Part shown: positions 27,559-30,690 of the stretch, piece by piece
Numbering within the stretch: the first letter of the stretch is position 1
Layout: the number at the start of each line of letters is the position of its first letter
From: Bacteroidia bacterium
Lineage (GTDB): Bacteria; Bacteroidota; Bacteroidia; UKL13-3
Assembly: GCA_025454875.1 (NCBI GenBank)
Contig: JALONP010000015.1
Location: 1-64,000 of the forward strand
DNA length: 64,000 bases
Direction: 5' to 3'
The notes under the pieces: generated by a model
The model's input: the letters and a program-made list of their open reading frames with translations, nothing else
The model's database searches: none
What the model was told of the DNA's origin: nothing
Made by a program: the position numbers and the translations under genes

Positions 27559-27647
27559 TTAACAATTGCGTAATACGCAAATAACATTGTATTAACTCAA
27601 CATTAATATTGGCGTAACCATTCACAAACAATCCGAAGATACTTTTG
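27559..27647 (+). promoter_or_regulatory. Promoter of the TonB receptor gene with seven 11-bp-phased direct repeats (PhoB/PhoP-box-like)
   Basis: Seven head-to-tail 11-mers start at 27559, 27570, 27581, 27592, 27603, 27614 and 27625: TTAACAATTGC, GTAATACGCAA, ATAACATTGTA, TTAACTCAACA, TTAATATTGGC, GTAACCATTCA, CAAACAATCCG. The common core is (T/G)TAAC. After the last repeat come 4 nt and then a perfect -7 element, TACTTTTG (27640-27647). The repeats cover the -33 position, which has no TTTG. OmpR/PhoB-family activators bind such 11-bp direct repeats, and TTAACA-type cores are known for Bacillus PhoP and cyanobacterial Pho boxes. Phosphate control is an inference. Confidence 0.65.
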
Positions 27648-27666
27648 CCGAACAAATTTTAGACAA

Positions 27667-30549
27667 ATGAAATTAGTTCGACTTAAGATTGTTATCTGCT
27701 TTGTTTTGAGCGTATTCGCTTTGGCAACATATGCTCAAGAGAAAGGTAAAATTGCTGGTAAAGTAATTGATAAAAAGACAGGTGAAGAGTTGATTGGTGT
27801 TTCTGTACAAATTGAAGGAACCAGTATCGGAACAGCGACCGATTTTGAAGGAAAGTTTATGATTAATAATTTAACTCCAGGTACCTATAACTTGGTTTTA
27901 AGTTATATTTCTTACAAGAAAAAGGTTATAACTGGTGTAGAGGTAAAGGTAAAAGAAACAACACTCATTAATACTTCAATGGAAGAAGCTACCAAAGAAT
28001 TAAATGAAGTTGTTATACGTGGAGAAGTAAAAAAGGAAAGCGCAAATGCAGTTCTAATTCAACAAAAAAATGCTGTTGCAGTTTCGAGTGGAGTGTCTGC
28101 CGATTTAATTCGTAAAACTCCAGATAGAACAACTGCTGATGTTATTAAGCGTGTGAGTGGAGCCTCTATTCAAGATAATAAGTTTGCAATTGTTCGTGGA
28201 TTAGGCGATCGCTACAACATGGGTTTTCTGAATGGTGCACCCCTGCCAAGTTCTGAAAGTGATAGAAAAGCATTTTCTTTAGATATCATTCCAGCGGCTG
28301 TTCTTGATAACATGGTTATTACCAAAACAGCGACCCCGGATATGCCTGGTGACTTCGCTGGAGGCTTTATTCAAATTAATACAAAGGATATACCTGACGA
28401 AGATCAAACCACTGTTCAGTTTTCTCTTGGAACCCATTCGCTTACAACCTTTAAACAAACACAGAACTTTGGAATAGGCTCACGCGATTTTTTGGGTTAT
28501 GATGATGGGAAAAGAGGAATTCCGGCTTCTTTGCCAGGAACTGACCAAATGAAGTCTGAAGGAGTTGCAGGAGAAAATGATAAGCTTGCGCAATACATGA
28601 GGGCCTCTAATAATAATTTTACTCCAAACATTGTTGAAAGTACAAGGCCGAATATTAGTTTTCAAGCATCTACTTCGAAAAGATGGAAAACGGAGAATAA
28701 TGAATTTGGATTGTTAACCGCTCTTACTTACAATAACAATATCCGTTATTTACCTTTTACAATTACCAACCTACAAGGAATTAATACATCTACTGAGGCG
28801 AACCTGGAAAAGTTTGATGGGCAAACTCTGAACTATAATACCTACAAGAACACTGTTATGGTCGGTGGATTGGCAAATTTTAGCTTCAAATTAGGCAAAT
28901 ACAATAAGTTCTATTTCAAAAACCTGATAACACAATTGGGTGAAGACCAATCGACATTAAGGACAGGAAGAAGAATTGTAGGAGTAAATGATGCGATTGA
29001 GAATCAAATAGAGTCACAATACAACCATTATATTTCACAATACCAACAAAGCAGAATGCTAAGCTCTCAAATTGGAGGGGAGCATTTATTACCTGGATCA
29101 AAAGTGAAAATTGGTTATGTGTTTGGTTACAACAATATCGAACGCGAAATGCCAGATTTCAGAAGGTTATTTTACCAAGCAGATCGCAATTTGTCTCCAG
29201 AAATGGGTAATTCACAAGCGCAAATCTTAGATAATGCGAGTGGATTTTCAGTTGCGAATAGTGGCAGGTTTACATCGAAGTTAGCTGAACAAAGCTATAG
29301 TGCTAATTACAATGTTACTGTACCTATTAAATTGTTTAAGAAAACGGATATCAAAGTCGGGGGAATGCACTTTATGAGAAATAGAAGTTTTAATGCTCGT
29401 AACTTTTTATACTCATTTAATAGCGGGAATCCGAATTGGTTCGATGGTAAAAAAGAGATTCCAGTTCAAGGCATATTCAACGACAGCAATGTAAACGAAG
29501 GTGGATTTTTTCAGAAAGATGCCACACAGCCATTTGACGCTTATACAGCAAGTTCAGCTTTGCATGCAGGGTATATCATGTTAGATCAAAAGGTAATTTC
29601 ACGATTACGTCTGATTTACGGAGTAAGATTGGAAAGCTTTAATCAGAAGTTAAATTCTTTAGATAACAGTGGAGCACCAGTTGTTGTTAACACAACAGTT
29701 TTAGATGTGCTTCCTTCAGCTAATATTGTTTATGAACTCACTGAAAAACAAAACTTACGATTAGGGTATGCCAAAACTGTTTCACGTCCTGAGTTTAGGG
29801 AGTTTGCTCCACTTGCATTTTTTGAGGTAAATTATAACGGAATTATCACAGGAAACCAGAACTTAACTAGGGCTAAGATTGATAATTATGATTTAAAGTG
29901 GGAGTTTTATCCTACAGCAAACCAAACGATTTCGGTAAATCCATTTTACAAGCGTTTTGTAAATCCTGTTGAAATGACTGTTAATCCTCAACAAGATAAT
30001 TTCGGATTCAGTTATGCGAATGCAAACTCGGCTCAGAATTATGGTGTGGAGCTTGAAGCAAGATTAGCGTTAACTTATTTTGACAAATTGCTTCAAACGA
30101 ATTTCATGAAAAATATTACAGTATTTACAAACTATGCACTCATTCGTTCTAACGTTAATATTGATGCCTTGGCGGGTGGTGCAGTTACCAGCAGACCACT
30201 TCAAGGACAATCACCGTATGTGTTTAATGCCGGCATTAATTATAACAATCCTAAACTATTTGATTTGAGCATAAACGTAAATCGGATTGGAAGAAGAATT
30301 GCCTTTGTGGGTACACAGGATGCATTTATTATTTGGGAGAATCCTAGAACAGTTCTTGATGCGAGCATTTCTAAAACCTTTTTCAAGAAATTGGTTGCTA
30401 AAATTACTTTAGGAGATATTCTTGCTCAACCACTTATTTATTATCAAGATTTAAATAAGAATGGCAAGTATGAAGAGGGTAAAGATATTGCTACATTCAA
30501 CTATAGATTTGGATATACAACGGCATTGTCTGTTTCATATAATTTCTAA
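27667..30549 (+). CDS. TonB-dependent outer-membrane receptor with carboxypeptidase-like N-terminal domain
   Basis: A 960-residue receptor. Signal peptide about 1-23 (ending TYAQ). A CarboxypepD_reg-like domain at about 28-110 (GKIAGKVIDKKTGEELIGVSVQIEGT). A plug domain at about 125-250 (ISADLIRKTP-like segment, AIVRGLGDRYNMGFLNGAPLPS, FAGGFIQINTKD). Then a 22-strand-type barrel ending TALSVSYNF with the terminal Phe. The RGLGDRYN.. plug pattern differs from SusC, and no SusD gene follows. Instead a T9SS-exported protein follows in the next transcription unit. The substrate is unknown. The gene has a strongly patterned promoter with 11-bp direct repeats and its own terminator. Transport across the outer membrane powered by TonB/ExbBD is established for the family. 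Confidence 0.92.
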   Translation: MKLVRLKIVICFVLSVFALATYAQEKGKIAGKVIDKKTGEELIGVSVQIEGTSIGTATDFEGKFMINNLTPGTYNLVLSYISYKKKVITGVEVKVKETTLINTSMEEATKELNEVVIRGEVKKESANAVLIQQKNAVAVSSGVSADLIRKTPDRTTADVIKRVSGASIQDNKFAIVRGLGDRYNMGFLNGAPLPSSESDRKAFSLDIIPAAVLDNMVITKTATPDMPGDFAGGFIQINTKDIPDEDQTTVQFSLGTHSLTTFKQTQNFGIGSRDFLGYDDGKRGIPASLPGTDQMKSEGVAGENDKLAQYMRASNNNFTPNIVESTRPNISFQASTSKRWKTENNEFGLLTALTYNNNIRYLPFTITNLQGINTSTEANLEKFDGQTLNYNTYKNTVMVGGLANFSFKLGKYNKFYFKNLITQLGEDQSTLRTGRRIVGVNDAIENQIESQYNHYISQYQQSRMLSSQIGGEHLLPGSKVKIGYVFGYNNIEREMPDFRRLFYQADRNLSPEMGNSQAQILDNASGFSVANSGRFTSKLAEQSYSANYNVTVPIKLFKKTDIKVGGMHFMRNRSFNARNFLYSFNSGNPNWFDGKKEIPVQGIFNDSNVNEGGFFQKDATQPFDAYTASSALHAGYIMLDQKVISRLRLIYGVRLESFNQKLNSLDNSGAPVVVNTTVLDVLPSANIVYELTEKQNLRLGYAKTVSRPEFREFAPLAFFEVNYNGIITGNQNLTRAKIDNYDLKWEFYPTANQTISVNPFYKRFVNPVEMTVNPQQDNFGFSYANANSAQNYGVELEARLALTYFDKLLQTNFMKNITVFTNYALIRSNVNIDALAGGAVTSRPLQGQSPYVFNAGINYNNPKLFDLSINVNRIGRRIAFVGTQDAFIIWENPRTVLDASISKTFFKKLVAKITLGDILAQPLIYYQDLNKNGKYEEGKDIATFNYRFGYTTALSVSYNF

Positions 30550-30568
30550 GAGAACTATTGTTGTATTT

Positions 30569-30602
30569 AAAGGGCATGGACCAAAGGTTTATGCCCTTTT
30601 AT
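30569..30602 (+). terminator. Intrinsic terminator after the TonB receptor gene
   Basis: A 9-bp perfect stem (AAAGGGCAT 30569-30577 with ATGCCCTTT 30591-30599) is followed by T. It lies 20 bp after the receptor stop, so the next gene needs its own promoter, which is present at 30613-30690. Confidence 0.8.
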
Positions 30603-30612
30603 ATTTTCTTAC

Positions 30613-30690
30613 TTAACCATTGCTTAACGTGATGTTAAAGTAACCACAACATTGGCTTAACAATATGGTGAGGCGTTCTGTCTAATCTTG
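30613..30690 (+). promoter_or_regulatory. Promoter of the 1299-residue T9SS protein gene with six 11-bp-phased direct repeats
   Basis: The 11-mers start at 30613, 30624, 30635, 30646, 30657 and 30668: TTAACCATTGC, TTAACGTGATG, TTAAAGTAACC, ACAACATTGGC, TTAACAATATG, GTGAGGCGTTC. Four nt later comes TAATCTTG (30683-30690, one mismatch from TAnnTTTG). Period, core, shared tails (ATTGC, ATTGGC) and distance to the -7 element all match the array at 27559. The last unit is degenerate. The same PhoB/OmpR-type activator is inferred for both. Confidence 0.65.

Follow-up and report, generated by a model that had tools for sequence, protein, structure and literature searches.

What controls the expression of a TonB-dependent receptor gene and of the neighboring gene for a very large secreted protein in this Bacteroidia genome, and do the two products act together? 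The first-pass annotation of the window, the 64,000-nucleotide stretch of DNA considered here, had described two arrays of 11-bp direct repeats in front of these genes and had read them as binding sites of a PhoB-type phosphate-starvation regulator that co-induces a pair of phosphorus uptake proteins. Below we evaluate the promoters, their conservation, the genes that share them, and the likely roles of the two proteins.

Phased repeats upstream of the receptor and surface-protein genes

Both arrays are real and lie at the positions claimed for them (Table 1). The units of array 1 follow the consensus [TG]TAACATTnnn, and, across both arrays, 10 of 13 units deviate from [TG]TAAC at no more than one of its 5 positions. 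The other three (the last unit of each array and the fourth unit of array 2) match at only 3 of 5, so the original count of seven and six units is slightly generous. We scored arrays as five consecutive [TG]TAAC cores spaced by 11 bp, with a maximum of 25. Array 1 and array 2 alike reach 22/25, a score attained by none of 2,000 dinucleotide shuffles. At periods of 7 to 16 bp other than 11, the array score is at most 17, and nowhere else in the 64-kb window, on either strand, does a site score 20 or more.

Table 1 Features of the window discussed in the text
Feature	Position	Strand	Remarks
Array 1, seven 11-bp units	27559..27635	+	predicted PhoB binding array; kept in orthologs
Array 1 unit starts	27559, 27570, 27581, 27592, 27603, 27614, 27625	+	cores in order: TTAAC, GTAAT, ATAAC, TTAAC, TTAAT, GTAAC, CAAAC
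-7 element of receptor gene, TACTTTTG	27640..27647	+	4 nt past last unit of array 1
TonB-dependent receptor, 960 aa	27667..30549	+	CarboxypepD_reg-like domain, Plug, beta-barrel
Terminator-like hairpin, AAGGGCAT...ATGCCCTTTTAT	~30569..30602	+	between receptor and beta-helix genes; read directly
Array 2, six 11-bp units	30613..30678	+	predicted PhoB binding array
Array 2 unit starts	30613, 30624, 30635, 30646, 30657, 30668	+	cores in order: TTAAC, TTAAC, TTAAA, ACAAC, TTAAC, GTGAG
-7 element of beta-helix gene, TAATCTTG	30683..30690	+	4 nt past last unit of array 2
Secreted protein, 1299 aa	30712..34611	+	beta-helix domain, repeated region, T9SS type A tail
Secreted protein, 2203 aa	231..6842		T9SS sorting tail, no further Pfam domain

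The two promoters also share their geometry. In each, a strong unit (at 27614 and 30657, respectively) begins 26 nt ahead of the -7 element. It also holds for both promoters, as the annotation had stated, that the array ends 4 nt before that element and that TTTG is absent from the -33 place; a terminator-like hairpin does separate the two genes. Such an arrangement, with 11-bp direct repeats upstream of the core promoter in place of the -35/-33 element, is that of a Pho box. In Escherichia coli, the 11-bp direct repeats bound by PhoB lie upstream of the core promoter element and take the place of the -35 region. The arrays described here are alike in period and placement but differ in their core ([TG]TAAC rather than TGTCA), in having up to seven units, and in standing 4 nt from a Bacteroidota -7 element.

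AT-rich tracts can bend DNA when their phasing approximates the helical repeat. In these two promoters, which lack a -33 element, the TAAC tracts could be intrinsically curved DNA or UP-like elements whose effect is a higher basal strength, with no dedicated activator involved. What is conserved, however, is a specific TAAC core with a strict 11-bp period, and the arrays are enriched at a phosphate-related set of genes, as detailed below; we therefore regard curvature or a UP-like effect as a most improbable explanation.

Conservation of the gene pair and its promoters

The receptor gene adjoins the beta-helix gene in most of 40 relatives, and a receptor of the same family is present inside 72 of 80 beta-helix loci from other genomes, which are mostly Bacteroidota, with two titled Ignavibacteriaceae or Melioribacter. 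At receptor orthologs down to approximately 40% protein identity, the array persists with its 11-bp period and with the 4 nt that separate it from the -7 element. Among 29 orthologous receptor promoters, exact [TG]TAAC units are spaced by 11, 22, 33, 44 and 55 bp in 20, 10, 14, 14 and 6 pairs, respectively, and other spacings are few except for an interleaved second phase. Four-unit arrays scoring at least 17 occur in 20 of 63 receptor upstream regions, whereas 1% of segments drawn at random from these loci have one.

The spacing to the core promoter is equally regular. We collected 63 array promoters without use of the -7 element, and 29 of them contain an exact TAnnTTTG 33 to 95 bp downstream; in all 29 of these scorable promoters its phase is 4 modulo 11, as in the two promoters of the window, although the counts are not of independent samples because the promoters are drawn from related genes. 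Both the repeat phase and the -7 spacing are thus conserved in orthologous promoters, one of the checks that the annotation had called for.

The interleaved second phase, in which units are shifted by 5 or 6 bp relative to the first, is seen in the receptor promoters of L039, L040, L041, L058 and L061 (e.g., TTAACTTAACaTTAAC).

Genes that share the array and a candidate regulator

As an unbiased query we used an exact pattern consisting of two units and the -7 element; genes played no part in it, and the reversed pattern served as a control. In 58 genomes of the family, it gave 24 matches versus 4 for the control. Nine of these matches precede Pit transporter genes, five the receptor family and two the beta-helix family; the remaining ones precede mostly large secreted proteins and one histidine kinase. 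The sole zero-mismatch site of this genome lies before a Pit phosphate transporter gene (PF01384), and Pit was assigned in the other eight matches by sequence comparison with this Pfam-confirmed copy. Across 119 genomes of the class, the exact pattern gave 24 matches versus 2 for the reversed control, and the new matches precede phoB in three genera, DUF47/PhoU_div genes twice and PstS once. The array is also found upstream of several best-scoring PstS genes of relatives; the majority of matches in the PstS-family search are PstS-like genes without it. As in a Pho regulon, then, the same element stands before phosphate-uptake genes (Pit and PstS) and phoB orthologs, and the association of genome-wide matches with phosphate genes, another proposed check, is nonrandom.

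A three-mismatch scan of the genome was too loose (132 matches versus 208 in the reversed control), so only its zero-mismatch match was used, and the count from a three-unit, one-mismatch scan was not above that of its reversed control (6 versus 15). When relatives' Pit genes were put to a strict two-unit test, 4 of 30 passed, and a second Pit gene is present in many of the genomes. Because most Pit genes failed this test, the link to Pit rests on the unbiased scans and these four genes.

Some array neighborhoods were recorded separately. A Porin_O_P-family gene near the array-driven Pit gene has a three-unit array (TTAACATTTGCTTAACATTTTGCTAAC) a short distance upstream, at L261 1501-1527 (G000 C10:68129-68155, where G000 is the present genome), which is oriented away from the porin gene. 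On contig C38 of a second genome, G008 (L070, L085, L162), the genes for two more secreted proteins that lack Pfam domains have arrays in front of them and lie near a receptor paralog and a double beta-helix gene; this is possibly a larger phosphate-responsive cluster. Genes at L070 and L284 were considered as phytase-like and porin genes and dropped, as Pfam gave no confirmation.

Which regulator would read these arrays? The genome encodes six OmpR/PhoB-family regulators, among which L001, on contig C10, is the only one with PhoB as its top NCBIfam model, at a score (227 bits) below the curated PhoB cutoff of 296. A PhoR-like kinase gene accompanies it, so that a PhoB/PhoR pair is encoded in the genome. 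L001 is 62 to 64% identical to the products of the three array-bearing phoB genes, compared with 26 to 35% for the other five regulators. Judged by these identities, L001 is the ortholog of the autoregulated regulators and the only clear PhoB homolog of the genome. Twenty of the 80 beta-helix loci contain an ortholog of L001 (55 to 64% identical), which in many cases is divergent from the receptor gene with array units in between, and in L201, a Flavobacterium metagenome-assembled genome, a phoB ortholog adjoins the receptor/beta-helix pair. In this genome, no array was found at L001 or at the best PstS-like gene. PhoU (PF01895) is absent from the almost complete assembly, despite the PhoB/PhoR pair and the Pit transporter, and the sensing input is thus unlike that of E. 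coli.

The arrays could instead serve another OmpR-family regulator, responsive to redox state, the envelope or metals, with the phosphate genes forming part of a broader regulon. Direct-repeat binding is common to OmpR-family regulators, and some array matches precede secreted proteins or enzymes without an evident phosphate role. The Riemerella PhoP motif, moreover, is similar to the one known for ArcA of E. coli (PMC9603813). However, the matches concentrate on Pit, PstS, DUF47 and phoB, the autoregulated regulator is orthologous to L001 and to none of the other five, and L001 orthologs adjoin the receptor/beta-helix pair. We consider a regulator of this different kind improbable.

The phosphate-starvation reading is supported because the array is conserved, is shared by phosphate genes and phoB, and occurs where L001 orthologs lie beside the pair. 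The annotation's central proposal therefore gains from scans that made no use of gene identity and nevertheless returned phosphate genes and phoB, and from a regulator that can be identified. PhoB-type phosphate regulation of the two array promoters is, from the sequence evidence, highly likely. Since the same array precedes both genes, as well as relatives' phosphate transporters and phosphate-starvation regulator, phosphate shortage very probably turns on the receptor and beta-helix genes jointly. We infer that when phosphate is scarce a PhoR-type kinase would phosphorylate L001, which would bind the 11-bp [TG]TAAC units head to tail, the units substituting for the absent -33 element. Bound PhoB would then position RNA polymerase at the -7 element (TAnnTTTG), which follows after 4 nt, and so co-induce the receptor and the T9SS-anchored beta-helix protein. 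Working together at the cell surface, these two would probably capture a phosphorus-containing substrate and move it across the outer membrane, and Pit, expressed from the same type of promoter, would carry phosphate into the cytoplasm.

A T9SS-anchored partner and its precedents

The nearest NCBIfam model of the receptor is TIGR01782 (TonB-Xanth-Caul), below its cutoff. The 1299-residue protein comprises an N-terminal right-handed beta-helix (residues ~65-440), repeats, and a sorting tail (residues 1220-1297) that identifies it as T9SS type A cargo (PF18962, 46.3 bits versus a cutoff of 27; TIGR04183, 36.9 bits versus 23). The beta-helix is our reading of a high-confidence all-beta structure prediction for residues ~65-330. 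A fold comparison of this domain gave weak matches to solved beta-helix proteins (e.g., pectate lyases and tailspikes), none at an E value of 0.001 or better, and a sequence search of the PDB with the full protein gave no matches. An acidic motif, NDDxxEWFGG...DDDxDxD, is invariant in an alignment of 30 relatives. The T9SS tail is the sole domain match of the protein; SusD-like domains (PF07980/PF14322) are absent, and so the pair lacks the SusD-like partner lipoprotein of a SusCD-like (PusCD) system.

Among the homologs, L153, L162, L163 and L166 carry the beta-helix domain in two tandem copies. The homologs L180 to L259 comprise both T9SS-tailed proteins and apparent lipoproteins of ~450 to 480 aa, as sorted by a regular-expression test only; this split suggests that the surface anchor may have been exchanged repeatedly.

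The annotation knew of no description of the pair as a defined system, but precedents exist. In Flavobacterium johnsoniae, a TonB transporter and the polygalacturonase-like lipoproteins FI/FII are among the most phosphate-responsive genes, and FII of PUSIV lies inside the phoBR cluster (PMC8115612). Our pair resembles PUSIII/PUSIV, by description, in that a TonB receptor gene stands beside a gene for a beta-helix-type surface protein, the F. johnsoniae genes being strongly induced by phosphate depletion (PMC8115612), and the location of PUSIV has its parallel in the phoB orthologs at homologous loci noted above, including L201. It differs in that FI/FII are described as lipoproteins, whereas the partner here has 1299 residues and carries a T9SS sorting tail, a separate array promoter precedes each of the two genes, and phoB/phoR are on another contig. 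In Caulobacter crescentus, ElpS (CC0170) is made on phosphate starvation and is encoded beside the TonB receptor CC0171, and co-occurring homologs have been reported in other genomes (PMC2996285). Here too the likeness, one of description, is a phosphate-starvation-induced surface protein beside a TonB receptor, whereas ElpS is a lipoprotein released in a T2SS-dependent manner and CC0171 is reported to be constitutive (PMC2996285). The receptor/beta-helix pair thus belongs to a kind already described, in a form anchored through T9SS.

These precedents also bear on what the proteins do. Overproduction of ElpS raised extracellular phosphatase activity, and ElpS itself is no phosphatase (PMC2996285). 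With Pho regulation of the promoters unchanged, the beta-helix protein might likewise stimulate or present a secreted phosphatase while the receptor imports something else, and the fold of the domain weakly resembles polysaccharide-active proteins. We think this division of roles rather unlikely, given how regularly the two genes are neighbors among relatives and occur within the same loci, which favors a joint function. Capture and import by the receptor and beta-helix protein together is the role toward which we lean. Thus, from the original proposal of a phosphorus-substrate co-uptake pair, phosphate regulation is well supported, while sequence does not allow the substrate to be named.

As for the promoters, DAP-seq of Riemerella anatipestifer PhoP gave sites with a conserved TTTAACA core, reported as one ArcA-like motif, so that the motif of a Bacteroidota PhoP is already published; it belongs to a PhoP/PhoB-type regulator and includes TTAAC, but the accessible part of the description contains no multiunit array fixed to a -7 element (PMC9603813). 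Bacteroides fragilis PhoB binds the pst promoter, with no motif given in the accessible part of that report (PMC3547664). In the open-access literature (Pho box, Bacteroidetes/Flavobacteria), we found no description of a rigid multiunit array promoter grammar, nor of the very large T9SS-anchored form of the pair.

Expression studies have measured the phosphate regulons of Bacteroidota, but we found no published promoter rule by which they can be recognized in sequence. The array with its fixed -7 spacing offers such a rule, one that is testable and assigns a regulator, and it links a widespread, uncharacterized family of surface proteins to phosphorus acquisition across the phylum. More tentatively, [TG]TAAC arrays 4 nt from the -7 element may be a general Bacteroidota Pho-promoter grammar, and the pair a phylum-wide outer-membrane gateway for phosphorus that would replace PhoU-coupled Pst in genomes like this one.
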